Virus record (IMG/VR): IMGVR_UViG_3300027896_000107
Location: 1 to 38,423 of that record
Direction: 5' to 3' (one strand)
Length of the DNA: 38,423 nt
DNA from: a virus
A model generated the notes under the pieces. That model saw only the letters and a program-made list of their open reading frames with translations. It did no database searches and was not told the DNA's origin. The position numbers and the translations under genes were made by a program. This document shows positions 4,624-35,729 of the stretch, piece after piece (position 1 is the stretch's first letter; every line of letters starts with the position of its first letter).

Positions 4624-4635
4624 GGGAGGACAATC

Positions 4636-4818: not shown

Positions 4819-4830
4819 GCTGAAAAGAAT

Positions 4831-4877: not shown

Positions 4878-4888
4878 ACGGAGACGCA

Positions 4889-5335: not shown

Positions 5336-5341
5336 GCGTGA

Positions 5342-5347: not shown

Positions 5348-5369
5348 AAAACAAGGGAGGAACACTCCG

Positions 5370-9036: not shown

Positions 9037-9040
9037 AACA

Positions 9041-9673: not shown

Positions 9674-10665
9674 AAACGTTTCTCGTGGGCAACCAGGCCA
9701 CGATCGAGGCCCTGGGGACAGCTTACCGGGCCGACCTTATTAAGATCGACCTGACAAATTTCTACACGGGCTACTCGGCAAACCGTGGCGCGATTCTTTA
9801 TGTGACGAATGGGCAGCAGGACGTGAAGTACGGGACGGATACCTACCATTCCTCGCTTTATGGGTCCTGGGAACGAGGCACGGTCTCTTCCGTGGCTGAT
9901 TTTACTCTGGAGTCGAAGGCAATGGCCCTTACTCTCATCGCCGATCAAACGGTCATGGCTCCGACGCCGAACACGACGACGCCAATCATGCAGATCATCC
10001 AGGCTGGACTTTTCGACGGAGCACCTGTCGATGTGATCACCGTCTGGATGTCACCGGGATGGGCGGGGCCGTTCACAACGGGACAAATTGTCGTTGCCTT
10101 GAAATTGTTTTCAGGCGTCATTGCCAGCGCGCAGCAGGTAGGCCGCTCCAAGGCAGAATTTGAGGTTCGGGACTGGAATTATCTGCTGAACCTCAAAATC
10201 CCCCAGCGCGTCATTCAGCCTGGCTGCTATCACACCTTCGCCGATACGGGTTGCATTGGTACAACGGGGGTAGGCGGGGAGTTTGGAATAGGGGCCTACA
10301 ACGGATGGCAGGCAGGAAACAAAGCCGACACCGGAAGCATGAGAACGGTCATCGTTCCCCAGGATGCCTGGTCAGGAAAGGTACTACCGGACTTTTCGCA
10401 TCCACAGCCAGGCTATTTCATCGGCGGATTGCTGATGTGGACCACGGGAGCAAATTCAGGACTTCCCGGCCACGTCGTTGCCGAGGATGCTATTACGGGA
10501 GCGCTCACGCTTGCCGCTCCGACGCTATTTCCGGTCACTCCTGGGGACCAGTTTCACGTCATCTTGGGATGTGACAAAACGCTCTCAACATGCATCAAGA
10601 GATTCTACAATGCAATAAATTTTGGTGGATTTCCTTTCGTGCCACCGCCCGAGCAGAGTATCTGA
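9670..10665 (+). CDS. Baseplate hub-like protein, DUF2163-like
   Basis: A 331-residue protein. The N-terminal half (LIKIDLTNFYTGYS, YGTDTYHSSLYGSW, VTVWMSPGW-like strands) and the C-terminal motif GCDKTLSTCIKRFYNAINFGGFPFVPP match DUF2163 tail-tip proteins, where a cysteine-rich C-terminal domain joins the hub. It is followed by an NlpC/P60 gene, as in gene transfer agents. Start and stop overlap neighbours, fitting one operon. Confidence 0.75.
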   Translation: MKTFLVGNQATIEALGTAYRADLIKIDLTNFYTGYSANRGAILYVTNGQQDVKYGTDTYHSSLYGSWERGTVSSVADFTLESKAMALTLIADQTVMAPTPNTTTPIMQIIQAGLFDGAPVDVITVWMSPGWAGPFTTGQIVVALKLFSGVIASAQQVGRSKAEFEVRDWNYLLNLKIPQRVIQPGCYHTFADTGCIGTTGVGGEFGIGAYNGWQAGNKADTGSMRTVIVPQDAWSGKVLPDFSHPQPGYFIGGLLMWTTGANSGLPGHVVAEDAITGALTLAAPTLFPVTPGDQFHVILGCDKTLSTCIKRFYNAINFGGFPFVPPPEQSI

Positions 10666-11120
10666 TGGACGAACGAGAACAAATTCAAAGGGACAAAGTG
10701 ATAGCAATCGCCAGGGAGTGGCTTGGGACGCCCTACCAGGCCCGCCAGTGCGCCCGTGGCCGCGGGTGTGACTGTGGATCGCTGCTTTTGGGAATTTTCA
10801 CCGAAGCTGGGCTTGTGACCAAGAAGCATTCGCTCGACTATGACTGGCTGGCGCCCTGGGCCCGGCGTGGAGGGGATGCTCTTTACGTCGGGTCCATCCT
10901 CGAGCATTGCCGGGAAATCAAGCCCGAAGAAGTGAAGCCGGGAGACGTGGCCCTCTACCACATAGGACGAGGCTGGTCTCACGCTGCCCTGGTCATCGAA
11001 TGGCCTTCGATTGTGATCCATGCCATTCGCAGCGGCGGAGTTGTTCAGTCGACGGGGTCGACTGGGCCTCTCGCTGGACGCGAACGAAGATTTTTCTCAC
11101 CACGGGGGTATGAATGTTAG
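10665..11120 (+). CDS. NlpC/P60 tail-tip peptidase
   Basis: A 151-residue protein with the NlpC/P60 catalytic layout: AREWLGTPYQ, then GCDCGSLLLG with nucleophile Cys37, then GDVALYHIGRGWSHAALVIE with His106, and VIHA with a third polar residue His119. These enzymes cut peptide cross-links of peptidoglycan; at the tail tip this would open the cell wall during DNA entry. The ATG overlaps the previous stop (TGATG) and the end overlaps the tip gene by seven bases. Confidence 0.8.
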   Translation: MDEREQIQRDKVIAIAREWLGTPYQARQCARGRGCDCGSLLLGIFTEAGLVTKKHSLDYDWLAPWARRGGDALYVGSILEHCREIKPEEVKPGDVALYHIGRGWSHAALVIEWPSIVIHAIRSGGVVQSTGSTGPLAGRERRFFSPRGYEC

Positions 11121-15145: not shown

Positions 15146-15922
15146 ATGGCTGTCACAAATACTATCATCACATATGCGAATAGGGCTAATCTCATTGCAC
15201 AAATCTCGACGCTTCTTCAGGCAATGGCCTGGGTGCAGAATGTTGCCGGGCCTCCATTGATTATGACTTCACCAGCCGATGCTCAAGGTCGGACAATTGC
15301 GTTTCAGCTTGCAGATAATGGTGGTGCCGGTTTAACGCTTACGCTGGCAGGATACCAATCCGGCGGAAGTCTCGTTGGATCAACAATTGCGAAAAGCATT
15401 CCAATCGCCAATTCAGCCGGAACCATCAATTTCAATGGGAACGATTACTGGTGGCAGATTTATAATTCAAATACGATCTGGCTGATTGGAGGAATGATGG
15501 CGGCGTTCGGAACCATCACTGATGATCCCTATCCGTTCTTTTGTGGAGGGTGTGGGACGAGCACCGCCAGAGCGTGGTTTAACAATTTCGCTAGCGTCTA
15601 TGACATGATCGCCACAGATGGATCAACACAACATTTCGCGGTGAATTTTCTCACGAATATCAATACTCAAACAAGGTTTGATGTTCGCCGAGGTTCTGTA
15701 GCGGGTGTTTTCGTTATTCCCGCCTTTGCGGGATCAATTTACAATTCTGCCTTAAGCGAGGCGAGGGGCCTCATTCCACACGCCTTTGTCGGACACATGT
15801 CGGGGCTTCCCGTTTATGGCGACACCTTAAGCGTGGGGGGTGTGCTCTATCAGAACTTTGGGGATATTATTACTGGTGGTGTGACGGTCGGTGGTCTTTT
15901 TTACCAAACTACAGGGAGCTAA
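15146..15922 (+). CDS. Tail-associated virion protein
   Basis: A 258-residue protein one base after the tip gene, with beta-rich and Gly/Asn-rich composition. The segment NDYWWQIYNSNTIWLIGGM and DDPYPFFCGGCG resemble virion proteins that follow tip genes in related siphophages. It may be a fibre or accessory tip protein. GAGGAAACTTAA upstream acts as binding site. No enzymatic motif is seen. Confidence 0.55.
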   Translation: MAVTNTIITYANRANLIAQISTLLQAMAWVQNVAGPPLIMTSPADAQGRTIAFQLADNGGAGLTLTLAGYQSGGSLVGSTIAKSIPIANSAGTINFNGNDYWWQIYNSNTIWLIGGMMAAFGTITDDPYPFFCGGCGTSTARAWFNNFASVYDMIATDGSTQHFAVNFLTNINTQTRFDVRRGSVAGVFVIPAFAGSIYNSALSEARGLIPHAFVGHMSGLPVYGDTLSVGGVLYQNFGDIITGGVTVGGLFYQTTGS

Positions 15923-16198: not shown

Positions 16199-16726
16199 AT
16201 GAAGAAGCCTCCGCATCCTAACGGTCTCAAGAACCTGATGCCCCCGTGGCCCAAGGGAAAGAGCGGAAACCCGGCGGGCCGACTTCCAGGGAGAAGCATC
16301 ACCGAGCGGTACATTCATTTTCTTGAGCAGCACGCCAGCGAAGCGATCCGGGTCAAATTAAAACTTGCCCCTGGTGCTACGCTGGGCGACGTCGGCGCGC
16401 TTATGCAGGTGCGGAAGTTCATGGCCGGAAGGACCGATGCAGCCAAGGAAATTGCGGACCGGGTGCAGGGGCGCGCCATGCAGCAGATTGAATTGACGGG
16501 AGAACAAGGCGGTCCCATTGACCTCACGATCAGCCCCGATGAAAGTCTCGAAAACCTCATTCGAGCTACCGAGCTTGTCAGAATTAGCGCACGCGAGCAC
16601 GCACGCAAGGCGCGAATATGCCCGCGCCCTCGAAAGGTACACCGCCGCAAACGAGCGAAGTCTCATGGAGCAAAACTTCGCCCTGTTCGTCAAAGGCGCG
16701 TGGCCCCTGCTGTGGCCGCAGGATAA
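16199..16726 (+). CDS. terS: Terminase small subunit, DUF5681-like
   Basis: The N-terminus has PPWPKGKSGNPAGRLPGRS, the DUF5681 signature found in small terminase-like phage proteins next to the large subunit. The middle is helical (FLEQHASEAIRVKL, KEIADRVQGRAMQQIEL). Small subunits bind the packaging site on the genome. The last 60 residues are Arg-rich, and 188 bases overlap the large subunit gene in another frame, so the true end of the functional domain is uncertain. The ATG has no binding site, and a leaderless start is likely. Confidence 0.65.
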   Translation: MKKPPHPNGLKNLMPPWPKGKSGNPAGRLPGRSITERYIHFLEQHASEAIRVKLKLAPGATLGDVGALMQVRKFMAGRTDAAKEIADRVQGRAMQQIELTGEQGGPIDLTISPDESLENLIRATELVRISAREHARKARICPRPRKVHRRKRAKSHGAKLRPVRQRRVAPAVAAG

Positions 16727-18131
16727 GCTCGAATGGCTTCCGTATCTCGACTGCATCTGTGAATGGCTCACGGCGCTCAGAGAAGGCTCTGTCAAGCGCC
16801 TCATCATCAATCAGCCCCCTCAAACCCTGAAATCAACGCTGGCCTCAATTCTTTTTCCGTGTTGGCTTTGGACTACGGAACCTCACCGCCGCATCATCTG
16901 CTCGACTTATGGATTTCAAGCCCTCTCTGTTCCGCAGTCTGTGAAGCGCCGCCGAATTATCCTTTCATCCTGGTATCAATCGCGCTGGCCCACGCGGATG
17001 CTCATGGACGCAAATGAGCGCTGGCGCTATTACAACGAGGACGGCGGTCACATGGTAGCGACAGCAACCGATTCCGGCATCACGGGAACGGGCGCGGACT
17101 ACATCATCATCGACGATCCGCACAACGTGAAGGAAGCCGTGTCGGATGTGGAGCGCGAGGCGGGCGTCACGTTCATCCGCGAAACGCTCATGACGCGGTT
17201 CAGCGATTCCCCGGAAGGACGGGCGGTTCTCGTCATGCACCGGCTGCATGAATCCGATGCCACGGGGCAGCTCTTCGGACTCGGATGGAAACGGATTGCA
17301 ATCGCAGCGCGAGCCGAAGAGACTGAAGACTTGAGAGTTGAACTCCCATCGGGTTTCACGTGGAACCGACCTAAGGGAGACTTGATCGAGCCGCGCCGCC
17401 TAAGCGAGGAAATTCTGGTCGCCAAGCAAACGCTCGAACTTGGGAGTCGCGCTTACTCCGCACAGTATCAGCAGCGACCCGCGCCCACGGGCGGAATTAT
17501 TTTCAAGCCGGAATGGTGGAGGCTTTATGGGGCTGGGTCTATTGGATTCGAGAGGACCGCAATCTCGGTGGACGCCGCATTCAAGGACACGAAAGAATCT
17601 CATCCCGTGGCAATCCAGGCGTGGGGACTCGTAGGACCGCGCAGTTATTTAATCGAAAAGGACACGGACCGGCGCGGATTCGCGGGAACAAAACACGCTA
17701 TCCGGGCCATGGAGGCGCGCTATCCCGGATCTGTTCTGCTCATCGAGGACAAGGCCAACGGACCAGCGATCATCGAAGGATTGCGACAAGAATTCTCAGT
17801 CATTGCGGTAGATCCCAAGGGGGGAAAGGTTCCACGCGCTGAAGCGTGTTCGCCCGACGTTGAAGCGGGAAACGTCTATCTCCCAGCCACAAAGCACCCC
17901 GAGACCGGAGAGCTCATTGCCCTGCCGTGGGTATCGGCCTTAATAACTTTGCTTGCAAAATTTCCAGCAGTGAAGGAAGATGACGACATCGACGCCCTTA
18001 CCCAACTCCTCAACTGGCGACGCCAGCGTGCCTGGGGAATCCTAGAAGTGATGAAAAAAGAAGCCTCGCAAGTCAAACCCAAAACCGAAGTGCCTGACAA
18101 TCCTATGGACTGGAGCAACGATAATGGCTAA
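16539..18131 (+). CDS. terL: Terminase large subunit
   Basis: A 530-residue packaging motor. A variant Walker A is at residues 89-101 (INQPPQTLKSTLAS), Walker B at 188-194 (YIIIDDP), and a motor segment VLVMHRLHESD follows. The C-terminal nuclease has acidic residues at Asp345 (ISVDAAFKD), Glu403-Asp404 (LLIEDKANG) and Asp481-Asp484 (DDDIDALTQLL). It cuts concatemeric DNA and pumps it into the head. ATG 16539 is chosen; a TTG at 16518 and ATG at 16665 are in frame. The start lies within the small subunit gene. Confidence 0.9.
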   Translation: MKVSKTSFELPSLSELAHASTHARREYARALERYTAANERSLMEQNFALFVKGAWPLLWPQDKLEWLPYLDCICEWLTALREGSVKRLIINQPPQTLKSTLASILFPCWLWTTEPHRRIICSTYGFQALSVPQSVKRRRIILSSWYQSRWPTRMLMDANERWRYYNEDGGHMVATATDSGITGTGADYIIIDDPHNVKEAVSDVEREAGVTFIRETLMTRFSDSPEGRAVLVMHRLHESDATGQLFGLGWKRIAIAARAEETEDLRVELPSGFTWNRPKGDLIEPRRLSEEILVAKQTLELGSRAYSAQYQQRPAPTGGIIFKPEWWRLYGAGSIGFERTAISVDAAFKDTKESHPVAIQAWGLVGPRSYLIEKDTDRRGFAGTKHAIRAMEARYPGSVLLIEDKANGPAIIEGLRQEFSVIAVDPKGGKVPRAEACSPDVEAGNVYLPATKHPETGELIALPWVSALITLLAKFPAVKEDDDIDALTQLLNWRRQRAWGILEVMKKEASQVKPKTEVPDNPMDWSNDNG

Positions 18132-23994: not shown

Positions 23995-24010
23995 CCCAAA
24001 GATTCAAAGG

Positions 24011-24049
24011 CCCTTCACCGTTAAACGGGCGGTGAGGGGTCTTTTTTTT
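24011..24049 (+). terminator. Intrinsic terminator just before the capsid gene
   Basis: CCCTTCACCG (24011-24020) pairs with CGGTGAGGGG (24030-24039) with one G-U pair around a nine-base loop, followed by TC and eight T residues. It is nine bases before the capsid AGGAGG site. It either ends the protease transcript or acts as an attenuator within the capsid leader. Confidence 0.75.
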
Positions 24050-24070
24050 GGGATCTCAGGAGGAAAGAAA

Positions 24071-25660
24071 ATGGAACCCACATTGGCACAGATGATCGGT
24101 CCTGAAATTCAGGCTCTTGTACAGGGTCTGCGCAAGGACATCACGAGCTCAGTGCTCGCGACAACTTCGGGCCTGAACTACTACTACCTCGAAGAGATCG
24201 CGCGCAACATCTACCCGGTATTTTATCCGGTCCTGGCGTCGATCCCTCGTGCCGTGCCGATGCAAAGGGGCGTCAAGGTTGGAGGCACCGGGATCAACTA
24301 CAAGGGCATCGTGGCCGTGGATTCGGGCGGCTATCCTGGGATCACCGAAGGGAACCGCAACTCGTACCTGTCCATCACGGAGCGCGACTTCGCGTGCGCT
24401 TACAAGTGGCTAGGCAAGGATTCTGGGGTCACCTTCCAGGCCGAACAGACCGCGATCGGGCTCGACGATCCGCAGGGTATCGCGCAGCTGTCCTGCCTGA
24501 ATGCCCTGCTCAATGACCAGGAGCGCATGCTTCTGTGGGGCAACTCGGGCGCGAACGGAGTCGGCAATCCCATGGGCAACGGGTTTGCCCTGGGACAGAC
24601 CAACACGCCGAGCGTGGTCTTGGCTTCAGGCGGAGCCATCACTAGCGCAAGGTATGCCAAGTTCGCCTGTATTGAGCTGACCGGCTGGGGCATCCAGCTG
24701 GCTACCGCAACCGGCGTCACGCCGAAACTGCATCGCACGACCGCTAACGGCGTGGCTGAGGATGTCTACGGTGGAACGGCACAGATCAGCGCGCTCTCGG
24801 CTGAATCGGCCGCCCCGACAAATTCCGGAGCTGGAAACCAAGCCTTCACGGCAACTGTTGTTCCGAAGCCCGGCGCTTTGGGATGGGCGTGGTATATGTC
24901 CATCGCAACGACCGGAGCCGAAACAGCCGCGACCTGCTATTTTGTCGGCATCACTTCGGTGCCCAAGATCACAGTTTTGGCGAATCCCGTGGCGACGAAT
25001 CAGGCAGCGGACGGAACACAGACCGCCAAGGCCGCTGTGGATCTGGCAACCGACTACAGCTATTCGGCGCTCGATTATGACGGCATCATGTCATGGGTCG
25101 CCGGAGCGCAGGGCGGCACGCAGAAGCCGTACCTCAAGAACTTGCTGGGGGCGACGCTGACGCCGAACGGAGACGGAACGATCCAGGAGATCGAGGACCT
25201 GATCTATTACCTCTGGTCGAACTTCAAAATTTCGGTTGACCACCTCACCTGCTCTTCGGACATGATCGGCCCGATCACCGCCGGGATCCTGAACGGCGGG
25301 ACAACGGGGTCACAGCGGATTGTGTTCGAATCCAACGGGCTCGGGACTGTCATCGGGGGTTCGCTCACCGTCGAGTACCGCTCGAAGTTCTCGGTGGGCG
25401 GTGCCGCGAAGGCGCTCACGGTCAAGGTTCACCCGTGGCTTCCCGGTGGAATCATCCTCGGGTGGACGGTCAACAATCCTTATCCGGCTGCTGGTGGAAC
25501 GATCCCGAGCGTGCTCCGCGTCGTGACTCTCGAAGATCACTTTGCGATCCGCTACCCGATCACGACTCTGCAGTACAGCATGGGCGTGTACTGCTTCGAA
25601 ACGCTGCAGAACTACATCCCGTTCGCACACGGATACATCTGCGGCGCGAGCCCGAGCTAA
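24071..25660 (+). CDS. Major capsid protein
   Basis: A 529-residue protein following the protease/scaffold gene. It has an HK97-like layout: helical start, then EIARNIYPVFYPVLASIPR, KWLGKDSGVTFQAEQTA, a loop region LLWGNSGANGVG, and a C-terminal P/A-domain ending in IRYPITTLQYSMGVYCFETL. Residues about 195-300 form an inserted, Thr/Ala-rich domain (LTAE-like strands, GWAWYMSIATTGAE) of the kind that decorates some siphophage capsids. AGGAGG lies eight bases before ATG 24071. Hairpin terminators flank both ends. Confidence 0.8.
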   Translation: MEPTLAQMIGPEIQALVQGLRKDITSSVLATTSGLNYYYLEEIARNIYPVFYPVLASIPRAVPMQRGVKVGGTGINYKGIVAVDSGGYPGITEGNRNSYLSITERDFACAYKWLGKDSGVTFQAEQTAIGLDDPQGIAQLSCLNALLNDQERMLLWGNSGANGVGNPMGNGFALGQTNTPSVVLASGGAITSARYAKFACIELTGWGIQLATATGVTPKLHRTTANGVAEDVYGGTAQISALSAESAAPTNSGAGNQAFTATVVPKPGALGWAWYMSIATTGAETAATCYFVGITSVPKITVLANPVATNQAADGTQTAKAAVDLATDYSYSALDYDGIMSWVAGAQGGTQKPYLKNLLGATLTPNGDGTIQEIEDLIYYLWSNFKISVDHLTCSSDMIGPITAGILNGGTTGSQRIVFESNGLGTVIGGSLTVEYRSKFSVGGAAKALTVKVHPWLPGGIILGWTVNNPYPAAGGTIPSVLRVVTLEDHFAIRYPITTLQYSMGVYCFETLQNYIPFAHGYICGASPS

Positions 25661-25696
25661 GGCTGACAGAATTTTGAGGAGTGGGGAGATTTACCG

Positions 25697-25735
25697 AAGC
25701 GCTCCGAGGCGACAAAACGCTTCGGGGCGCTTTTT
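25697..25735 (+). terminator. Intrinsic terminator after the capsid gene
   Basis: AAGCGCTCCGA (25697-25707) pairs with TCGGGGCGCTT (25722-25732) over 11 bases with one G-U pair, and a T-run of five follows. An overlapping alternative stem CCGAAGCG/CGCTTCGG also exists. It separates the capsid gene from the signal-peptide cluster. Confidence 0.8.
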
Positions 25736-25752
25736 AAGTTAAGGAGTCCACC

Positions 25753-26145
25753 ATGAAACTAAGAATTGCGTTGCTCATCGCGTTCGCAGTGATCATCGGC
25801 GCTCTTGCGCTGAGCCTCAGAGCCCAAACGCAGACCTCGATGACCGTGACGCTCACGGCAGCGAATACGAATTACAACTTGCGGACGCTGCTTATCGGCG
25901 TTGATAGCCGGGTGGTCGATAACTTCACCTCGATCACCTTCACAGCAGCGGACGCGAATATCGACATGGTGTTGGTGGGTGATTCCAGCCTAAGCGCCAG
26001 CCGTTTTGGATTCAACCTAGGGCCTGGGGATTCTTACACGTCGCCGTCCCGCGATCCGAATGACCTGGTGCATCCGAGTCTCTACTATCTCAGGAGTGCG
26101 ACGGCCGGCATGGTCGTCCACTTCATTGGGAGGACAACGAAATGA
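25753..26145 (+). CDS. Secreted or virion beta-protein with signal peptide
   Basis: A 130-residue protein. Residues 1-25 form a classic signal peptide: basic start MKLR, hydrophobic core IALLIAFAVIIGALALSL, and a likely cut after RAQ. The mature part (SMTVTLTAANTNYNLRTLLI, SITFTAADANIDMVLVGD, LGPGDSYTSP) resembles small beta-proteins encoded next to capsid genes in siphophages, which are normally cytoplasmic. A strong AAGGAG site precedes the ATG. The signal peptide on a capsid-neighbour protein is the odd feature. Confidence 0.6.
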   Translation: MKLRIALLIAFAVIIGALALSLRAQTQTSMTVTLTAANTNYNLRTLLIGVDSRVVDNFTSITFTAADANIDMVLVGDSSLSASRFGFNLGPGDSYTSPSRDPNDLVHPSLYYLRSATAGMVVHFIGRTTK

Positions 26146-28700
26146 AACGATATTTGACAGGTGTGTTTGCCATCACGCTCGCCCTTGCTATTTGCTTGAC
26201 TTCTCCAGCCTACGGTCAGATCAGCCGGGCGGGCGGTGCCCAGGGATTGCCCGGGCATTCTGTTCTCAACGGTAGCGGTGTGCCCGGAGGCGGGACCGGG
26301 GCGAATGGAGATTTCTACATCGACACCACCGCGCACGCGATTTATGGACCGAAGACCGCCGGGGCGTGGGGCTCAGCAACATCGCTTATTGGCCCATCTG
26401 GAACGGCTGCAAACACGATCTGGAATGGATCTGGCGATCCATCCACGGGAGATGGCGTCGATGGCGATTTTTGGATCAATACTACCTCCAACAAGATTTT
26501 TGGCCCCAAGGCGACGACCTGGCCGGCAGGTGTTTCGCTCGTTGGCCCTGCCGGTTCTCCTGGAAGTCCTGGTTCCCCCGGCGCCGATGGCAAAACGGTT
26601 TTGAACGGCACGGCTGTACCGACTACTGAAGGAACTCTTGGTGACTTCTATCTCAAGACCGACACCAGTGATTTATATGGCCCTAAGACGGGTGGCGGGT
26701 GGGGTTCTCCAGTTAGCCTGCTTGGCTCACCGGGAAGCCCTGGTTCACCCGGTGCACCAGGAGCTGACGGCAAGACGTTGCTCAATGGAACATCGGTCCC
26801 GACGACCGAGGGAGTGGTAGGTGATTTTTATCTCAAGACGGACACGAGCGACCTTTACGGACCGAAGTCCGGCGGCGGATGGGGATCTCCGGTTAATTTG
26901 ATCGGACCTCAAGGACCTCCGGGGACCACGTCGTTCGCAAATCCTTCGGCGAGCGTTGGAACGAGCGCAGTCAACGGCAGCGCGTCCACGGCGATGCGTT
27001 CCGATGGTGCTCCGGCGATAAACCAGACGATGACGCCCACTTGGACAGGCAAGCATACCTTCAACGCTGGGTTGGATGCGGTCGTCCCCAATGCAGGAAT
27101 TGAACTTATTACGAATGTTGTAGATCGTGATTTCAGTGGGGCAGGTGATTGGGTACTGGATGCGAACTGGGCAATCGCCGCAGGAAAGATGACGCATACT
27201 GTCGGAGCAACTGATACAGCTACTCTACCTCATGCTTACTTAACAACAGGTTCTGTTGAGGCAGGTAAAATATATCAAGTTACTTTCACGATATCAGGAT
27301 GGACGAATGGAGCTATCAAACCCAAATTGGGTGCTGCCACACCGCTGTATCAAGCTTCTGGAAACGATACTTTTCATCTACCCATTACGGCCCTTGTGAA
27401 TGATGTCGATCTGATATTTGAGGCTACCGGTGATTTTGACGGTTCCATAGACAACGTGAGTCTAAAACTTGCTGATTCTGGTTTGTTTGTACTTCCTAAC
27501 GGTCAAGCTGGATTCAATACAAGAACGCCCAACGGGTTGGTCGAAATCTTTGGTAAAGGAAGTGGGAGTGTTTTTGGTTCTCCTACCCTCTTGCATCTTG
27601 CCCAAACTGCGGATGATTGGATTTTAACTTTTGAAAATAGTAACCCATACGACTCACCGTTTAATCCCTTTTTTGCAGGAATTTATGTTGGATTTTCTGG
27701 CGAGCTTGCTTTTGCAACATCAGACGACGCAGGAAGTTATGTTACTCCTTTTACTTTGCTTCCTAAGAACTATAATTTTTTGACACAAACTGAGGGAGTG
27801 GTTGTTGGCTGGCAAGGGCGAGGAAATCTCAGCATCGGTACTTCTCAATGGGACACTGGAATTGAGAACGGTCTCATCTTTCTCAACGGTACTGCTCCTT
27901 CTACTTCCATAGCCGATCAAATTCAACTGTGGGCGGCAGACTATGGAACTGGAGACTCTCGCCTCTATGTGAAGTCTGAAGCTGGCGACACCGTAATTAT
28001 CGGGAATGGAGAAATTCGGAGTGCTGGAAATTTGAATATCGCCGCTGCTGGCACTGTCACTATGACGGGCGTTCCCTCCTGCTCCAAGTACACCGTTGCC
28101 TACGATAATGCCGCATTTACGGCCGGAGCGACAACGGCCAACGTGACCATCGCCTCTCTTCCGGCCTATGCAAAAGTCACGGGCGTCACAATTAAGCATT
28201 CCGCTCCATTTGTTGGCGCCGGCATGACCACGACAACCGTGTCTTTGGGTGATGGGTCAAATCATACCGCTTATTCAACACCTGCTTTCGACATCGCTCA
28301 AGCATCTGCAGATACCACGTTCCAGGATACGGCTCAATACAAGTCAACGACCATGGCCGGATCTAATCTGGTGGCTCATTTTCTTGCGGATGTGAACTTC
28401 GGGGCTTCGGCTGTCCCCATCACTGCGGCCACAAACGCCAGCACGGTCGAGCTCACTGCCGTTGGCCATGGCCTGAAAACTGGAGCCACCGTAGAGATCT
28501 CGGGTGCCACCGGCGCTTGGGCTGCCATCAATGGGACTTTCAGCATAACCTGGACCAGCGCTGATACGTTCACAATCACGGTTGATTCCACGACCTTTGG
28601 AACGCTCTCAGGATCCCCGGTTTTCAACGCCCAAGCCCTGAGCGCCGGCAGCGTTGATCTTTTCGTATGCTCTATGGTGCTTCCGGGTGCGCCCCACTAA
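26142..28700 (+). CDS. Collagen-like fibre with signal peptide (852 aa)
   Basis: Residues 1-26 are a signal peptide (KRYLTGVFAITLALAICLT, cut near AYGQ). Residues 31-261 hold collagen-like Gly-X-Y runs (GPAGSPGSPGSPGADG) alternating with four repeats (GDFYLKTDTSDLYGPK type). A jelly-roll-like domain (about 320-450) and beta segments follow; the C-terminus has TVELTAVGHGLKTGATVEIS like phage fibre ends. It overlaps the previous gene by four bases. The fibre could bind carbohydrates on cells, but its export signal argues for envelope or surface location. Confidence 0.65.
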   Translation: MKRYLTGVFAITLALAICLTSPAYGQISRAGGAQGLPGHSVLNGSGVPGGGTGANGDFYIDTTAHAIYGPKTAGAWGSATSLIGPSGTAANTIWNGSGDPSTGDGVDGDFWINTTSNKIFGPKATTWPAGVSLVGPAGSPGSPGSPGADGKTVLNGTAVPTTEGTLGDFYLKTDTSDLYGPKTGGGWGSPVSLLGSPGSPGSPGAPGADGKTLLNGTSVPTTEGVVGDFYLKTDTSDLYGPKSGGGWGSPVNLIGPQGPPGTTSFANPSASVGTSAVNGSASTAMRSDGAPAINQTMTPTWTGKHTFNAGLDAVVPNAGIELITNVVDRDFSGAGDWVLDANWAIAAGKMTHTVGATDTATLPHAYLTTGSVEAGKIYQVTFTISGWTNGAIKPKLGAATPLYQASGNDTFHLPITALVNDVDLIFEATGDFDGSIDNVSLKLADSGLFVLPNGQAGFNTRTPNGLVEIFGKGSGSVFGSPTLLHLAQTADDWILTFENSNPYDSPFNPFFAGIYVGFSGELAFATSDDAGSYVTPFTLLPKNYNFLTQTEGVVVGWQGRGNLSIGTSQWDTGIENGLIFLNGTAPSTSIADQIQLWAADYGTGDSRLYVKSEAGDTVIIGNGEIRSAGNLNIAAAGTVTMTGVPSCSKYTVAYDNAAFTAGATTANVTIASLPAYAKVTGVTIKHSAPFVGAGMTTTTVSLGDGSNHTAYSTPAFDIAQASADTTFQDTAQYKSTTMAGSNLVAHFLADVNFGASAVPITAATNASTVELTAVGHGLKTGATVEISGATGAWAAINGTFSITWTSADTFTITVDSTTFGTLSGSPVFNAQALSAGSVDLFVCSMVLPGAPH
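26232..26924 (+). repeat. Four collagen-linked repeats in the fibre
   Basis: Units at residues about 40-86, 90-137, 151-196 and 211-256 share the pattern (L/I)xNGxxxPxxxxGxxGDF(Y/W)(I/L)xTxxxxx(Y/F)GPK, then W and SL(I/L/V)G. The last two are nearly identical at protein level and 180 bases apart, suggesting recent duplication. Gly-X-Y runs link them. Confidence 0.75.
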
Positions 28701-28708
28701 GGAGAGGC

Positions 28709-29083
28709 ATGAAAAAATTATTTTTCATCCTTCTTTGTTCTTTGCTCCTGGTGACAAGGGCATGGGGACAGTCGCCTTTTAAGAATCCCTATTTCGTCAC
28801 GAGTTTAGGATTCAATCTCGCGGCCTCGGCAGTGGATTGGGCAGATAGTCATCATGCCCTGAACAACGGAGCCGTTGACCTAAACTTCGTCATCGGGAGT
28901 CGTGGTCAAAGACTGAATTACGTCAAAGGAATCACGATGGGAGTCTCTACTTTGTCCTCCTATTACGGCTGGAAAAAGGCCGAAAGAGAGCGCTCCCGAA
29001 GACAGAAGGCCGCAATCGTCATAGCCAATTTCGCCGTTGGGGCAATCTACACGGCGGTAGTGATAGGAAATCACCGGCACTAA
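28709..29083 (+). CDS. Signal-peptide protein of unknown function (124 aa)
   Basis: The signal peptide is MKKLFFILLCSLLLVTRAWGQ. The mature part has AASAVDWADSHHALNNGAVDLN and a hydrophobic C-terminal helix (IVIANFAVGAIYTAVVIG), which recall bacterial membrane proteins of unknown role more than phage virion proteins. GGAGAGG precedes ATG 28709, so the longer upstream frame is not used. It is the third of four signal-peptide genes. Confidence 0.6.
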   Translation: MKKLFFILLCSLLLVTRAWGQSPFKNPYFVTSLGFNLAASAVDWADSHHALNNGAVDLNFVIGSRGQRLNYVKGITMGVSTLSSYYGWKKAERERSRRQKAAIVIANFAVGAIYTAVVIGNHRH

Positions 29084-29091
29084 GGAGCTTT

Positions 29092-29865
29092 ATGAAAAAA
29101 GCAATTCTCGGAATTTTTCTGCTGTTGCTTTCGGGCGCTCTTTTCGGCCAAACGCTGATCAATGTCAGCTACGTCAACGGCGTCCAGCAAATCACCAGAA
29201 CGTTGGCGAATCAGCCCGGAGCAACGATTGGACTGAACTTCACAGGGACAACGCACGCTCCGAGCGGAGAGCAACTTTATATTGCCTGTTCTGTTCCGGC
29301 GGCGACCTCAGCGCATTTCTATCTCGGCGGGGCGCTGATCTGCACAGGGCAGACCTGTGACGTGGGCGGCCTGAACCTTACGGGGATTCTTGAAGTCACT
29401 CCAGTTTTTGATTTGACGAGCACGGCGGCAACCCTGGACGGGAGTGCGGTGTTTTGCGATTTAGCCTTCACGGGATCGATGAATTACAATTTTACCAACA
29501 CTTCACATCTCATGGTTGCGGTTATCTCCGCGCCGGTGATTCCGCCTCCACCCATCCCCATCCCTGTGGCAACCTTTCCGGTGGCCGTGTGCGGCGGCAG
29601 CTATGGGGATTTTGGTGTGTCGGTCAGAAATACAGGAACGAATGATATTACGTATTACCTGGCCTTCACTGATTCTTCGGGAACGGTGACGAAGGACGCT
29701 ACGCAAACACTCGAAGACGGCAAGGCTTCAGCCCGGCGCATGGGAGATTTCCTGGCCTGTTCTTCGGCGCAGGTTGGACGACTTCAGGTCTTTTCCAGCG
29801 GCACTCCTGAGGTTGGGGGCTTGGCCTTCACAAATTCCTTTGCGCTTCCCGTGAGGCCGAATTGA
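29092..29865 (+). CDS. Secreted beta-rich protein with signal peptide (257 aa)
   Basis: The signal peptide is MKKAILGIFLLLLSGALFGQ. Two beta-rich halves are joined by a Pro-rich hinge (PPPPIPIP). Four cysteines in the first half and two in the second suggest disulfides, which fit an exported protein. No family is recognised. The ATG is eight bases after the preceding stop behind AAGGAG, and the stop overlaps the next gene's start. Confidence 0.6.
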   Translation: MKKAILGIFLLLLSGALFGQTLINVSYVNGVQQITRTLANQPGATIGLNFTGTTHAPSGEQLYIACSVPAATSAHFYLGGALICTGQTCDVGGLNLTGILEVTPVFDLTSTAATLDGSAVFCDLAFTGSMNYNFTNTSHLMVAVISAPVIPPPPIPIPVATFPVAVCGGSYGDFGVSVRNTGTNDITYYLAFTDSSGTVTKDATQTLEDGKASARRMGDFLACSSAQVGRLQVFSSGTPEVGGLAFTNSFALPVRPN

Positions 29866-30155
29866 GCCGTGAGACCACAGCACAGCCCCTTGGAGAGATT
29901 TGGCGCTATACGACAGTGTTCCTGGCGGGCATCGTCGCCACGCTGGTCGCTACGTGGTTCACCGCCTGGTGGAATGCCGCAACGCGAAGCGAGGTGGCGA
30001 TACAATTCAGCGAAATTAAAACATCCCAGTCGGTTATGCAAAAAGACCTGACGGAAGTGAAGAGCGACATCGGCTTCATTCGGGGCCGTATGACGGAACA
30101 GAACGAACTGACCGCAAGACTACTGGGCGATGCTACTCAGAAGAAAGGTCGATGA
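29862..30155 (+). CDS. Membrane-anchored coiled-coil protein (TTG start)
   Basis: A 97-residue protein from TTG 29862, overlapping the preceding TGA. It has one hydrophobic segment (TVFLAGIVATLVATWFTAWW) then a helix with IKTSQSVMQKDLTEVKSDIG. The position before a peptidase gene suggests a lysis role (holin or spanin-like), but the single span and long helix do not fit a standard class. Confidence 0.5.
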   Translation: MSRETTAQPLGEIWRYTTVFLAGIVATLVATWFTAWWNAATRSEVAIQFSEIKTSQSVMQKDLTEVKSDIGFIRGRMTEQNELTARLLGDATQKKGR

Positions 30156-30637
30156 GCGTGACGATTGAGGAAATGAATCTTGTGGGCGACGCGCTCGAAG
30201 GAGCGCAGGAACTTCAGGAGCGGTTCGGAGATGAGCCCGACTTCAAATTCACGTCAGGACGCCGCGATCGCTCCGGACAGTGCCGCGCCATGGCTGCAAA
30301 TATCTGCGCGGCCGGTAATCGCCAATGGATCACTCAAACATATCGATCGACTCCGGTCACAACGCAATGGCAGGCATGGGTCGATAGGAATCCGACCGTG
30401 GTGGACGTTCCAGGACTCGCCCATGGACTTCTTGCCGTCCTCAATCAATTCAGCGACGACGACCTGGCGGCCATGGATTTCCTTCACCATCTCTCAGGCC
30501 TGGCCTTCGATTGCGCCCCCGTCGTAGGGCCGCTCTCGGATGAAATTTTCGCGGAGATCGAGGGGCTCCCTGGGCTCGATAAGGTCCTGCGGAGTGAAGG
30601 CGGTCTGCCTCGATTGCATGCGCAGTTCAAAAGTTAA
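30152..30637 (+). CDS. M15-like peptidoglycan peptidase, probable endolysin
   Basis: A 161-residue protein with FTSGRRDRSGQ (residues 33-43), like the SGxR motif of M15 peptidases. HLSGLAFD matches H-x2-G-x-A-x-D with His113 and Asp120, and LPRLHAQF gives a third likely zinc ligand at His156. M15 enzymes cut peptide stems of peptidoglycan. A 70-residue stretch between the motifs is longer than usual. There is no signal peptide, so release would need the neighbouring membrane proteins. Confidence 0.6.
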   Translation: MSVTIEEMNLVGDALEGAQELQERFGDEPDFKFTSGRRDRSGQCRAMAANICAAGNRQWITQTYRSTPVTTQWQAWVDRNPTVVDVPGLAHGLLAVLNQFSDDDLAAMDFLHHLSGLAFDCAPVVGPLSDEIFAEIEGLPGLDKVLRSEGGLPRLHAQFKS

Positions 30638-30640
30638 TGT

Positions 30641-31333
30641 ATGACAAAATTAGAGTTCGCCCAAGCGTTTAGAAATTACTCCATCGCTCTTTTTTTTGGA
30701 GTTCTGAGCGTAGCGGTCCTGCTCGTCGCCATGGACCTCCATCGAACGATTCCGGCTATTCCATCCTCGACCGCTGGGGTTGTCAACACCCAGGGCGCGG
30801 CGCTCGATAAAAGACTGGCCTCAACGCAGGCTGATTTGAATGACCGTCTCACAGAGGCAACCAGGATTTTGGACAATCGCATGGCTTCAATTCAAAAGGA
30901 TTTGAATTCGCAACTTCAGGCGTTGGGAAAAGCAACGAATGGAAACATAGAGGCCCTTCGCGCGAATGTAGACGCGCACCTGAAGCACGTCGATGGATTG
31001 GTGGATCAGACCAGCACAACTCTCGGGTCCGTCCACGATTTGGCGGAATCAGTTCATAAGTCGGTTGATTCGTACCAGCTACAGGCCCCGGAGCTTTACC
31101 GCAGAACCTCGCTGCTGCTGGCACGGGCCGACAACCTCGCTCTGCAGACACAGGTGGCGCTCCCGGAATTCGTGAAGTCGGGACAGGAGACCGTGAAGAA
31201 CGGGGCAGGTGTCACCGCGGATGTCCACACTTTCACGACAAGGTTTGTGGCGCCGACGACGAAAAAGGGTGTGGCCTGGGGAGTGTTCCGTGTAGTTGTC
31301 AATCCCGTGGCATGGATCACGACGAGATTTTAG
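30641..31333 (+). CDS. Membrane-anchored long coiled-coil protein (230 aa)
   Basis: One hydrophobic segment near residues 15-31 (IALFFGVLSVAVLLVAM) is followed by a long helical region (LDKRLASTQADLNDRLTEAT to VDQTSTTLGSVHDLAESVHKSV). The topology suggests an N-terminal inner-membrane anchor with a periplasmic rod, spanin-like in outline. The ATG lies three bases after the previous stop without a clear binding site. Confidence 0.5.
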   Translation: MTKLEFAQAFRNYSIALFFGVLSVAVLLVAMDLHRTIPAIPSSTAGVVNTQGAALDKRLASTQADLNDRLTEATRILDNRMASIQKDLNSQLQALGKATNGNIEALRANVDAHLKHVDGLVDQTSTTLGSVHDLAESVHKSVDSYQLQAPELYRRTSLLLARADNLALQTQVALPEFVKSGQETVKNGAGVTADVHTFTTRFVAPTTKKGVAWGVFRVVVNPVAWITTRF

Positions 31334-31335
31334 AT

Positions 31336-31518
31336 ATGATTCTTCAGTGCGGAAAATGCGGAGCGCAGAGAGACCTGATCGAGAGCGTCTATCACCAGGG
31401 ACCGCAAGACTGCATCGATCCGCGATTCAAATTTGAGGGAGAGCATTTTCACTGCACCTGCACGAAATGTCTTTTTGAGTGGCCGGAAAGGGCCGAACCG
31501 GAGATCAACAATGGATGA
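31336..31518 (+). CDS. Zinc-ribbon protein (60 aa)
   Basis: From ATG 31336 the protein starts MILQCGKCGAQ and has CTCTKCLFEW later, giving a plausible four-cysteine zinc ribbon. An in-frame ATG at 31312 would extend it by eight acidic residues and overlap the previous gene; neither has a strong binding site. It overlaps the following papain-like gene by eight bases. Confidence 0.5.
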   Translation: MILQCGKCGAQRDLIESVYHQGPQDCIDPRFKFEGEHFHCTCTKCLFEWPERAEPEINNG

Positions 31519-32317
31519 AAATATCAGCTTTCGCTATGGCAGAAATCCTGACCATCACGACGTCCGCGACGCGATTCATGAAGTCAGTCCCTCGGCGATG
31601 AAGATGATGCTGCCACACATCCCGGCGACGATGGATGTTTTTCAGGGCCTCAATCTTCCCGTTTACGATCAGGGCCAACTGGGAAGCTGCACGGCGAACA
31701 CGGGCGTCCTCTACCGGCGCTTCCTGGCACAGAAATTTCCAAAATACTCCGATCCCGACATGGACCTGAGCCGCCTGTTTCTCTACTATCAGGAGCGGAA
31801 GCTACCCTGGAACGGAGGCGTCCAGGAAGATTGCGGCGCGGAGATCCGGGACATCTTCAAGACGCTTACCTCCGTCGGGGTGTGCCCGGAGCAGGTGGAT
31901 CCTTACAAGCCGTCCGATTTTGCCTCGCCCAAGAACGACGACCCGACGGCCGTTCTTCAGGCAGGTCGATACAAGATCGGGGCCTATCACCGCGTCCCGG
32001 ATGTGCTGAACGTCAAGCTGGCGCTCGTTTCGGAATACCCCGTCGCCCTGGGCTTCACGGTCTATGAATCGTTCGAACACATCAAAGGCGATGGTGTGAT
32101 GCCGATGCCCAACCCTCACAACGAAGACAAGATGGGCGGCCACGCCGTCTGCATCCGGGGATATGACGAGAGCCGGAAGGCGTTTCTGGTACAGAACTCC
32201 TGGGGGCATGGCTGGGGATACAAGGGCTGTTTCTGGATGCCCTACGCTTTTTTGGAGAATGTCGATCTTTCAGGCCCCGACTTTTGGATCGGGCACCTGG
32301 GCCCGGCGTGGAAATAA
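31511..32317 (+). CDS. Papain-like (C1A) cysteine protease
   Basis: A 268-residue protein with the papain triad and oxyanion Gln: DQGQLGSCTANT (Gln56, Cys60), GGHAVCIRGYDE (His211) and VQNSWGHGWGYKG (Asn229, Trp231). No signal peptide or propeptide of usual length is seen, so it may act in the cytoplasm or leave by lysis. Papain-like enzymes are uncommon but known in phages. Targets could be host envelope proteins or phage precursors; this cannot be decided. It lies between a zinc-ribbon gene and a holin-like gene. Confidence 0.75.
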   Translation: MDENISFRYGRNPDHHDVRDAIHEVSPSAMKMMLPHIPATMDVFQGLNLPVYDQGQLGSCTANTGVLYRRFLAQKFPKYSDPDMDLSRLFLYYQERKLPWNGGVQEDCGAEIRDIFKTLTSVGVCPEQVDPYKPSDFASPKNDDPTAVLQAGRYKIGAYHRVPDVLNVKLALVSEYPVALGFTVYESFEHIKGDGVMPMPNPHNEDKMGGHAVCIRGYDESRKAFLVQNSWGHGWGYKGCFWMPYAFLENVDLSGPDFWIGHLGPAWK

Positions 32318-32332
32318 AGGGAGGCAATAATC

Positions 32333-32554
32333 ATGGACAATTGGGTAGGGCAACACTGGCAGGTTTTGATTGCCGCGTGGTGGTTCTTTAACATCCTGGT
32401 GAGCACCATGCCGGCGCCGAAGGAGAACGCCCACCAGGGATACATCTGGCTGCACAATTTCCTGCAGGCCATCGCCGGGAACGGAAAGCAGTTTTTCCAG
32501 AACCTCCCGAGCGGAATTCAATCAGCATTTTCACAAACGAAAAAGGGAGACTAA
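32333..32554 (+). CDS. Small holin-like membrane protein (73 aa)
   Basis: One hydrophobic segment (WQVLIAAWWFFNILVSTM) follows a short start, then MPAPKENAHQGYIWLHNFLQAIAGN. The 'MPAP....gY.W...fl...aGN' pattern resembles a small protein family seen in many phages, sometimes near lysis genes. AAAGGGAGG lies upstream. Holin function is inferred from size and neighbours. Confidence 0.5.
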   Translation: MDNWVGQHWQVLIAAWWFFNILVSTMPAPKENAHQGYIWLHNFLQAIAGNGKQFFQNLPSGIQSAFSQTKKGD

Positions 32555-32572
32555 CCAAAAGGGAGAATTCCA

Positions 32573-33088
32573 ATGAAACGAAATCTTGCAAGCAAACTCG
32601 TCATCTATGCGGTGCTGTTCCTGTTCACCTGGGGCTGCGCGCTTCCGCCCTGGGTCTCGACCGTCGAGAGCGACGTCCAGGCGGCAGCTCCCATCGCTGC
32701 GGCTCTCGTGGCCGTCGTCAATCCGTCCCTAGCGCCCATCGCCACGATTGTCGTCGCCGGGATCAATGCGCTCGCGAAAGTGCTGGATTCCTATAAAGCC
32801 CAGCCCACAGCGACCAACCTTCAGTCTGTCCAGGCGGCAGTCAACGCCATCAATGCCAACATGGCAGACCTGATGGCCGCCGCCCAGATCAAGAACCCGA
32901 CATCTGATGCCCGGGTGACGGCGATCGTGGGACTTCTGGCGCAACTGGTCAACGAAGTTGTGGCACAAGTGCCCTCGGCTAATCCCAAAGCAGTACGCGG
33001 GGCAACCCAGGCACACGGTGGGGCGTTCTACAAGGATCAGTTCAACGCGATTACCCGGGGCGACCGCCGGTTCGTTCCAATTGCGTAG
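32573..33088 (+). CDS. Lipoprotein-like exported protein (171 aa)
   Basis: The start (MKRNLASKLVIYAVLFLFTWGC) resembles a lipoprotein signal with Cys22, although TWGC is an imperfect lipobox. The mature part is Ala/Val-rich with helices (PIAAALVAVVNPSLAPIATIVVAGINALAKVLDS). AAAGGGAGA lies before the ATG. Last gene before a strong terminator. It may be an outer-membrane lysis or exclusion factor; no family is assigned. Confidence 0.55.
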   Translation: MKRNLASKLVIYAVLFLFTWGCALPPWVSTVESDVQAAAPIAAALVAVVNPSLAPIATIVVAGINALAKVLDSYKAQPTATNLQSVQAAVNAINANMADLMAAAQIKNPTSDARVTAIVGLLAQLVNEVVAQVPSANPKAVRGATQAHGGAFYKDQFNAITRGDRRFVPIA

Positions 33089-33111
33089 AAATCTCCGGGG
33101 TCGATTAAAAT

Positions 33112-33140
33112 GGCCCGTCCCGAGCAGGAGACGGGCCTTC
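33112..33140 (+). terminator. Intrinsic terminator-like hairpin closing the envelope/lysis block
   Basis: GGCCCGTC (33112-33119) pairs perfectly with GACGGGCC (33130-33137) around a ten-base loop, preceded by AAAA and followed by a T/C-rich tail (TTCCTGCCTTCTTT) rather than a clean T-run. The rest of 33141-33353 shows no convincing gene. Confidence 0.6.
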
Positions 33141-33353
33141 CTGCCTTCTTTGGGGGTCGGTTGGTACGATTCATCGTCCGTGTGCCCTACAAGGCGGCCC
33201 TGGTGGACAAAACGAAAGCCGTGAAAAGGTGTCTGGAAGAACAAAAGCAATGCCTTGAATATCTTAGCGGAAGCGGGGACGATAAGGCCGGTGCCGGGAG
33301 CGGGCTTCAAGATTGGATTGTCGAGCAGCTGCTTATTGAAGAAGAAAAAGACC

Positions 33354-34044
33354 ATGAAGAAAAACTCCCTTCGGCTCGTTTATTTACGTCCAAAAGACCT
33401 CAAAAAGAATCCGCGCAATTGGCGCAAGCATCCAGCCGATCAGGCTGAGGCGCTGCGCTCCGTCATGGAAGAGACCGGCTGGGCCGGGGCCATCCTTCTC
33501 AACGCGACAACCGACCGGATCATCGACTTGGGCGGATGCGTTTGCTTTATTTCGCGGAGATGTTCTTTATTGTTGGAACGCGTCGGCGTCGGCGTCCGCG
33601 ATCCAGTTCGCGGGCGACATCATGAAATCCGGTTTTGAAATTAAGAATCAAATAATTTGGGCAAGAAATAACATCGTCATTGGGCGCGGAGACTATCACT
33701 GGAAACATGAGCCGTGCTGATATGCCGTAAGGAAGGGCAAAAGGCACAATTGGCAGGGCAGCCGAAAGGAATCAACCGTTTGGGAAATAGACAAACCGTT
33801 GAAATCCGAGACCGGACACTCGACGCAGAAGCCGATTGAATGTATGGCAATCCCGATAAGAAACAATTCGGACCGCGGGGAGGGCGTCTATGATCCATTC
33901 CTTGGCTCGGGCACCACAATGGTTGCCTGCCAGAACCTAAACCGCAAATGCCGAGGAATTGAAATCTCTCCGGCCTATTGTGCCGTCACGCTGGAGCGGA
34001 TGCACAACGCCTTCCCGAAACTCAAAATTAAGCGCTTGCCGTGA
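33354..34044 (+). pseudogene. Decayed ParB-domain DNA methyltransferase
   Basis: From ATG 33354 a ParB-like start is clear (VYLRPKDLKKNPRNWRKHPA, EETGWAGAIL, TDRIID). At 33528 the expected GHLR part and the whole DPPY-containing first half of the methyltransferase are missing, and the frame shifts. The downstream part in another frame continues WADAFALFRGDVLYCW, GDYHWKHEPC, a TGA at 33718 where Trp is expected, then HSTQKPIECM and VYDPFLGSGTTMVA with the FxGxG SAM site. With no DPPY motif and broken frames, the enzyme should be inactive. Confidence 0.75.
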
Positions 34045-34102
34045 ACAATCCGACCCCCATATCTTGTGCCTAAAATAAATCGAGCGGATCGCCATTTTCC
34101 GC

Positions 34103-34130
34103 TTGACAAGTGATATCGCGGAGATATATC
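34103..34130 (+). promoter_or_regulatory. Sigma70-type promoter with palindromic operator candidates
   Basis: TTGACA (34103-34108) and TATATC (34125-34130) are 16 bases apart. The ATG of the ribbon-helix-helix gene is nine bases further, without a Shine-Dalgarno sequence. Two palindromes, GATATC (34112-34117) and GATATATC (34123-34130), 11 bases apart, overlap the spacer and -10 box and could be the binding sites of that protein. This is the best promoter in the window and would drive the replication block. Confidence 0.55.
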
Positions 34131-34139
34131 GTCTCGCTC

Positions 34140-34379
34140 ATGGTTACACCATTCATCGTTAGATTCACTTCTCGGGCGGAAAAAGAACGCGCCGAATGGG
34201 CCGCCCGTCAATGCAAGATTTCCTTGGCCCGGATGGTTCGGGAACTACTCAAAGAAAAGGTAAGAACGCTGCGGCTTGCGCCTGAGCCGACCGCGCCAAC
34301 AAGCAACACAACCCAGGGAGGAGTGCCCTGCTATGATCAGCCGAACAACGTACGATCCGCCGGCGCCGCTCGCATTTGA
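34140..34379 (+). CDS. Ribbon-helix-helix (Arc-type) DNA-binding protein
   Basis: A 79-residue protein. The start VTPFIVRFTSRAEKERAEWAARQCKISLARMVRELL (split by normal loop positions) fits the ribbon-helix-helix pattern: a strand IVRFT, helix one, a turn KIS, and helix two LARMVRELLKEKV. Such dimers bind short palindromes and often repress their own promoter, and candidate palindromes lie just upstream. Overlaps the nuclease gene by 47 bases. Confidence 0.6.
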   Translation: MVTPFIVRFTSRAEKERAEWAARQCKISLARMVRELLKEKVRTLRLAPEPTAPTSNTTQGGVPCYDQPNNVRSAGAARI

Positions 34380-34941
34380 CGCCGAGCGCCACGAGTATCG
34401 CATCAATCGCGCCGTAGTTCCGTCCGTCACCCAGGTCATCAACGACATGCTTCCCCAATGGAAAGCCGGAGACTGGTATCTGCAGAGGGGAAGGGCGGTT
34501 CATGCTGCCGCCGCCATTGTTGCCAAGGGACTTGATTTCAACTATGACCCGCGCATCTCAGGCCAGGTTGAAGCTCTCCAAAAATTTTTCAGACAACTGC
34601 ATCCTGAGGTGGAAGCTGTCGAGCAACCCGTTTTCTCAAAGCTCTATCAGTTCGCCGGGACGCTGGACCTGCTGGCAAGGATCGGCGGACGCCGCATGAT
34701 TGCCGACTATAAGGCTACGCTCACGCCCACGACTCCGATTCAATGCGCCGCCTATTCGCTGTGCCTTTCCTCGCCGCAGCCGCTTTTCGGCGTCGGCATC
34801 GAGATCCGGGAAGACGGCAACTACCGCATGTCAGAGATTTACGATCTCAGAAAGTACCGGGGCGAATTTCTTGCCCTGCTCACCGTCTACAACGTCCGCA
34901 AGCGATTAGGTCTACTGGAAAAAAAGGAGGAAACACAATGA
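34333..34941 (+). CDS. PD-(D/E)XK nuclease (RecB/Cas4-like)
   Basis: A 202-residue protein from ATG 34333 with an AGGAG site. The motif FAGTLDLLARIGGRRMIADYKAT supplies Asp, then Asp-x-Lys of a PD-(D/E)XK site, followed by PIQCAAYSLCLS, the Gln-xxx-Tyr helix of RecB-like nucleases. It lies before a coiled-coil partner and a RecT-like gene, as in phage exonuclease-annealase pairs, where the nuclease resects DNA ends for annealing. Confidence 0.75.
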   Translation: MISRTTYDPPAPLAFDAERHEYRINRAVVPSVTQVINDMLPQWKAGDWYLQRGRAVHAAAAIVAKGLDFNYDPRISGQVEALQKFFRQLHPEVEAVEQPVFSKLYQFAGTLDLLARIGGRRMIADYKATLTPTTPIQCAAYSLCLSSPQPLFGVGIEIREDGNYRMSEIYDLRKYRGEFLALLTVYNVRKRLGLLEKKEETQ

Positions 34942-35729
34942 GCACGCAAATTGAAATGGACCAGTTGGAAGCGGTGAAACGTGACATTTCACCCGTACTT
35001 CAGAGGGCAACAGCCCTGATAGTTCGAGACCAGGAAAGCCGTGACGATGCCGTTACTTTTGGAAAGGACATCAAGGCCGCTCAGCGACGAGTGGACGATT
35101 TCTTTGACCCGACGATTGACCTTCAACACAAGGCATGGAAATCGGGACTTGCGGCCAAGGCGCTGCTCGCTGATCCGCTGAAGGCGGCTGAGAAAATGAC
35201 CAAGGAAAAAGTTCTCGCCTTCGACCGTGAAGCTGAACAAAATCGCCTGGCGGAACAGCGACGACTTCAGGCTATCGCAGACGAAAAAGCCCGCCGGGAC
35301 CGCGAAAAGCAGGAAGCCGAAGCGCGGCGGCAACGCCAGATTGAAGAAGAGCAGAGGCGAGCAGTTGAAGAGAAACGGCGAGCAGCTGAGCAGGCGTCAG
35401 CCGAAGAACGGGAAAGACTCAATCGGGAAGCCGCGGCAGCCGAGCGCAAGGCCAACGCCGCGGCCGCCAAGGCCGAGTTCAAGGAAGAGACAGCAGCGGC
35501 CGTTGTTGCTCCTGTGGTGACGGTAGCACCGGCGGTGGAGAAGCAGAAGGGCGAATCCACAAGGAAGCTCTGGAAGGCGCGGGTTACTGACGTTTCGCTT
35601 GTCCCGCGGGAGTACATGACCGTCAATCAGCAGGCCCTTGATGGTGTGGCCCGAGCAACCAAGGGGGCCATTCAGCTTCCGGGCGTCGAATTCTACTCCG
35701 AGGACAATCTGGCGCTCGGGGCCAGGTAA
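34938..35729 (+). CDS. Coiled-coil recombination-associated protein (263 aa)
   Basis: Residues about 90-200 form an Arg/Glu/Ala-rich coiled coil (EEEQRRAVEEKRRAAEQASA). The end (LWKARVTDVSLVPREYMTVN, then ALDGVARATKGAIQLPGVEF) is a conserved C-terminal domain in phage proteins found between exonuclease and RecT genes. An AAAAAGGAGG site precedes ATG 34938. A role in single-strand annealing is inferred from neighbours. Confidence 0.65.
   Translation: MSTQIEMDQLEAVKRDISPVLQRATALIVRDQESRDDAVTFGKDIKAAQRRVDDFFDPTIDLQHKAWKSGLAAKALLADPLKAAEKMTKEKVLAFDREAEQNRLAEQRRLQAIADEKARRDREKQEAEARRQRQIEEEQRRAVEEKRRAAEQASAEERERLNREAAAAERKANAAAAKAEFKEETAAAVVAPVVTVAPAVEKQKGESTRKLWKARVTDVSLVPREYMTVNQQALDGVARATKGAIQLPGVEFYSEDNLALGAR

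Follow-up and report, generated by a model that had tools for sequence, protein, structure and literature searches.

The window analyzed here, a 38,423-base viral record (IMGVR_UViG_3300027896_000107), carries a multigene envelope block in which four consecutive genes (A to D) encode predicted Sec substrates with Sec-type signal peptides. One of these, gene B, encodes a collagen-like protein homologous to phage tail fibers, and the second half of the block (genes E to K) is a probable lysis cassette. Both halves contribute to the envelope block described in an earlier note on this DNA, including its two anchored coiled-coil proteins (E and G). The genes, the signal peptide patterns, the fiber homology of B, and a recurring association of protease, lipoprotein, and signal peptide genes in other phage loci were all computed in this analysis. 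Our preferred reading, which is tentative and which we consider plausible rather than probable, is that the block is the fiber-plus-lysis module of a tailed phage, in which A to D would be exported late, B would act as a non-virion fiber that binds a surface or receptor, and E to K would open the envelope. The features are as follows.

25696 to 25733, + strand: strong intrinsic terminator separating the block from the capsid gene (U-tract; -29.5 kcal/mol, z -5.3)
25753 to 26145, + strand: gene A, 130 aa, predicted signal peptide, beta-rich mature part
26142 to 28700, + strand: gene B, 852 aa, predicted signal peptide, collagen-like and GDFYIDT..YGPK repeats, carbohydrate-binding-like part; tail-fiber homologue
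28709 to 29083, + strand: gene C, 124 aa, predicted signal peptide; no convincing relatives
29092 to 29865, + strand: gene D, 257 aa, predicted signal peptide, six Cys in the mature part
29862 to 30155, + strand: gene E, 97 aa, one N-terminal transmembrane segment followed by a coiled coil, spanin- or holin-accessory-like
30152 to 30637, + strand: gene F, 161 aa, possible M15-like endolysin
30641 to 31333, + strand: gene G, 230 aa, N-terminal transmembrane segment followed by a long coiled coil; generic coiled-coil matches only
31312 to 31518, + strand: gene H, 68 aa, six Cys, zinc-ribbon-like by eye; no family matched
31511 to 32317, + strand: gene I, 268 aa, C1 papain-like protease lacking a signal peptide (PF00112, 1.2e-12)
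32333 to 32554, + strand: gene J, 73 aa, small membrane protein; similar small transmembrane genes occur near the protease
32573 to 33088, + strand: gene K, 171 aa, lipoprotein whose phage family is protease-linked (phmmer relatives to 6e-7)
about 33112 to 33137, no strand assigned: stable hairpin at the block end, without a U-tract (-20.9 kcal/mol, z -3.1)

The run of four signal peptide genes reported earlier was recovered when the N-termini were scored. Genes A to D are closely spaced open reading frames at the starts listed, each with a Shine-Dalgarno-like sequence, and the start of B overlaps the stop of A (ATGA). Scores of 6.1-7.6 were obtained with a rule-based predictor of n-, h-, and c-regions that was written for this analysis and used with a cut of 5 (the gene caller was likewise simple), and all three regions and the -3,-1 rule are satisfied in each protein. 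Among control N-termini, OmpA (7.9), DsbA (7.6), and MalE (6.2) pass, FtsQ scores -2.9, no signal peptide is called for RecA, GAPDH, or LepB, and PhoA scores 4.0, so a cut of 5 would miss it. Probable cleavage sites chosen by eye, marked with a slash, are RA/QT in A, AYG/QI in B, AWG/QS in C, and LFG/QT in D. The cut is passed by 135 of the 3,916 genes called in related loci (3.4%) and by 0.5% of shuffled proteins. Because the background is only 2.5-3.4% of phage genes, four such genes in a row are not due to chance, the expectation, with genes treated as independent, being about 1e-6 per position.

Neither A nor D has a match among cultured phages at E 1, and single-protein scans of viral contigs yielded no relatives of A, D, or the capsid protein. 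The AlphaFold model of A is a low-confidence all-beta structure (pLDDT 60), for which a fold search returned nothing at E 0.001, and the model of D is poor (pLDDT 46). Profile searches detected no enzyme family in A to D. A suspected relationship between C and small signal peptide proteins of loci L302, L320, and L334 failed on alignment. Those of L320 (9677-10339) and L334 (9713-10306), which are encoded directly downstream of the papain-like protease, resemble exported HNH nucleases.

The collagen-like fiber described in the earlier note is real, in that B contains collagen-like runs and matches fiber and tail genes of cultured phages. A tblastn search found such matches in 24 phage records, the best with 45% identity over 32% of B (E 1e-27), and residues 328-443 match the tail protein of Rhodobacter phage RC1. 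Collagen-like fibers of phages Phosso (gene 364; Sinorhizobium), SURPRISE13 (gene 173; Burkholderia), and Francob (gene 29; Streptomyces) share the repeats of B with identity up to 45% but, unlike B, have no signal peptide. Indeed, a signal peptide is absent from all six homologues that were read, which also include those of RC1, R2C (gene 34), and pEp (gene 67). In the Phosso and SURPRISE13 homologues, a long N-terminal region takes the place of B's signal peptide, with Phosso carrying some 330 more N-terminal residues than B. No more than about 10 residues separate the predicted cleavage site of B from its first collagen repeats, and there is no obvious N-terminal tail-attachment region in B when compared with the homologues' N-termini. 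An outer-membrane sorting signal was not recognized in B by eye. Thus, B combines parts of a fiber with a signal peptide where its homologues have other N-terminal sequence, which is why a non-virion fiber is proposed. Also within B, G+C content falls to 46% over positions 27001-28000 versus about 56% around it, which would fit an exchanged binding part.

Export of the fiber, as the earlier note had proposed, is predicted by the signal peptide of B, and signal-peptide-bearing fiber-like genes recur in other phages. When loci were collected by the protease and then searched with a profile of K, 13 viral loci were found to carry a member of the K family near a C1 papain-like protease, and every one of them has at least one signal peptide gene within 8 kb. 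Signal peptide genes make up 24 of 247 genes there versus 35 of 1406 in portal-matched loci (Fisher 9e-7), and among proteins of at least 400 aa the counts are 7 of 28 versus 2 of 266 (Fisher 1e-6); these comparisons must be read with the understanding that some loci are near copies (L308 and L309, L320 and L334) and that the protease and portal sets differ in host range, and recognition of signal peptides may be easier for some hosts than for others. Signal peptides occur on 25 of 60 fiber-like proteins in protease loci, on 1 of 23 in portal loci, and on 11 of 619 other large proteins, where fiber-like means at least 350 aa with S, T, G, N, and A above 48%, thresholds picked after inspection of the data. 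Cysteine enrichment in the signal peptide proteins was not significant (p 0.06).

Individual loci give a sense of how these genes are arranged. Many of the fiber-like genes with signal peptides start only a few bases from the gene upstream. In L320, such a gene overlaps the tail-tip gene by 4 bp, with a holin-like gene, K, and the protease coming next; in L170, a near relative, one begins 4 bp after the tail tip. Locus L291 has three consecutive signal peptide genes and a fourth one gene further, followed by an anchored coiled coil and K. However, L334, the sister of L320 at the cassette, has a fiber lacking a signal peptide in the slot after the tail tip, so the trait is not universal among these fibers. 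Neither K nor the L320 fiber has a match among cultured phages. A predicted signal peptide gene is found in the cultured Pseudanabaena phage Pam5 (Pam5_19, score 5.4; L352, 3933-4400), directly after the tail spike and upstream of the endolysin, so that a cultured phage has such a gene in a comparable position.

The K family is also present in two Acidobacteriota genomes, beside the protease in one of them. These relatives, weak capsid matches in two other Acidobacteriota genomes, and signal peptides ending A/Q or G/Q suggest indirectly that the host is probably Acidobacteriota-like and of a soil type. Beside K in an Acidobacteriota genome (L271, 12171-18713) lies a 2,180-aa open reading frame with a signal-peptide-like stretch inside its called N-terminus, and thus its start may be misassigned.

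The second half of the block resembles a lysis cassette, and there is consequently no need for the novel lysis path that was once suggested. Gene E has a weak match to the Rz-like spanin family phrog_739 (E 0.0096). The papain-like protease stands, since gene I scores above the PF00112 cutoff and its catalytic residues are intact (Gln54, Cys60, His211, and Asn229 are invariant in the alignment). Likewise, K has the signal sequence of a lipoprotein and a lipobox Cys22 that is invariant in nine family members, although the lipobox of the window protein (TWGC) is not canonical. Gene F is a possible M15-like peptidase by its HxxGxAxD motif only; Pfam gave it no significant hit and, even among matches up to E 1, nothing from an M15 family, and its one relative is in MW202554 (38%). 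Genes like J were found in only 2 of the 13 K loci (L087 and L302). The anchored coiled coil of E and the lipoprotein K recall the two-component Rz/Rz1 spanins, but K is 171 aa long and not proline-rich, and E and K are not adjacent in the window. Anchored coiled-coil genes by or near lipoprotein genes, also reminiscent of spanin pairs, are seen in L308 (3423-4353), L291 (7455-8959), and L126 (7098-7886).

The location of the block directly after the capsid gene had been considered an unusual place for signal peptide genes. The location is correct, but the argument drawn from it is weaker, since connector and tail genes follow the capsid gene in relatives. Gene order in the near relative L015/L169 runs from terminase through portal, protease, and capsid to homologues of window genes 3185-6128, then tail and tail tip, whereas in the window the tail tip (11114-15145) and genes 3185-6128 lie upstream of the terminase (16518-18131). 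With the tail module ahead of the terminase, the block after the capsid gene corresponds to the usual post-tail region, where fibers are followed by lysis genes. The idea that the block occupies a head-gene position by design was dropped after this comparison. Of the two terminators claimed for the block ends, the upstream one is strong, and the downstream one (33112) is a hairpin that lacks a U-tract.

There are several known systems with which this arrangement can be compared. The usual view is that tail fibers are folded and assembled in the cytoplasm. Lambda Bor is a small envelope lipoprotein of the late region with a signal peptide, and T5 Llp is an exported phage lipoprotein that masks the phage's own receptor. 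The role of Llp resembles the receptor blocking proposed for B, but Llp is a small lipoprotein whereas B is a fiber. Lambda Lom has a signal peptide and is encoded between the tail spike and fiber genes (PMC12309495). Lom and Bor resemble A to D as signal-peptide-bearing envelope proteins of the late region near tail-fiber and lysis genes, but the former is a beta-barrel and the latter a small lipoprotein, in contrast to the fiber B. XepA of prophage PBSX, a late protein of the lytic cassette that is exported past the membrane and absent from mature particles (PMC6834076), is a precedent for a late, exported, non-virion phage protein, although its fold and host differ from those of B. Variable binding proteins of phages were described in 2018 as lacking the signal peptides seen on those of bacterial surfaces (PMC6199706), and no earlier description of tail-fiber-like proteins with signal peptides was found in the open-access literature.

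In the preferred reading, A to D would be expressed late and exported through Sec, at least as far as the periplasm. B, as a fiber that is not part of the virion, might attach to dying cells and cell debris through a glycan of the surface or through the phage's own receptor, and this binding could reduce re-adsorption of progeny or exclude rivals. A role in surface adhesion or exclusion is possible. Such masking fits B because it has no tail-attachment region. E to K would then open the envelope by means of the anchored coiled coils, the possible endolysin, the papain-like protease, and an outer-membrane lipoprotein. The broader proposition, that many uncultured soil and water phages export fiber-like receptor-binding proteins via Sec, with these fibers either decorating cells and debris or joining virions after release, is possible but rather doubtful. 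If true, phages would use their own fibers to cover the host surface or block it, or would complete their virions outside the cell, and receptor masking or a part of tailed-phage assembly would occur outside the cytoplasm.

Other explanations must be weighed against this reading. The fibers might be receptor-binding proteins of the virion that are exported, folded in the periplasm, and attached to tails at or after lysis, which would suit the gene order at the tail tip in L320 and L170, the placement of a signal peptide fiber after one lacking it in L125 and L101, and the matches of parts of the L140 signal peptide protein to the Pam5 tail spike and other tail fibers. We consider this unlikely: B has no obvious means of tail attachment, and in the window another gene (15146-15922) directly follows the tail tip; moreover, we know of no tailed phage that assembles fibers by export and subsequent attachment. 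There is also only a modest chance that A to D are lysogenic conversion genes akin to lambda lom and bor, exported in the lysogen to alter the host surface. The strong upstream terminator, the relatives of K in Acidobacteriota chromosomes, and the location of lom are all in keeping with this possibility. However, no integrase was identified in a non-exhaustive search of the window, and promoter-like sites (sigma-70 type model only) and terminator-like sites show no excess over chance across 24000-35000, including between A to D and the lysis-type genes E to K, which points to joint late expression.

The exported proteins could instead be surface depolymerases or accessory lysis proteins that aid progeny exit, given that A to D share a block with the protease, the lipoprotein, and the possible endolysin, and that some signal peptide proteins of relatives resemble by sequence beta-helix proteins that bind or cleave polysaccharides. 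This explanation is quite improbable, as no enzyme family was detected in A to D. Finally, the four N-termini might not be functional signal peptides, leaving the proteins in the cytoplasm as virion parts. The calls come from a rule-based predictor only, and A has a long hydrophobic stretch that might instead anchor it in a membrane. Nevertheless, the textbook n/h/c layout of all four N-termini, each with a small residue at -1 and Q at +1, the rarity of passing sequences among shuffled proteins, and the recurrence of signal peptides on fiber-like genes across loci make this highly improbable.

Some additional observations concern the layout of the window and its relatives. The segment 3185-18131 places connector, tail, and tail-tip genes before the terminase and portal genes, the reverse of the relatives' order. 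The near relative L015 has two signal peptide genes (8944-9735 and 9857-10390) within its head module, between portal and protease. Just ahead of the capsid gene there is a second strong terminator (24006-24044; -29 kcal/mol, z -6, T-tract), within which the GTG start of that gene (24032) falls; translation probably begins at the ATG at 24071 instead. The capsid gene has terminators on both sides.
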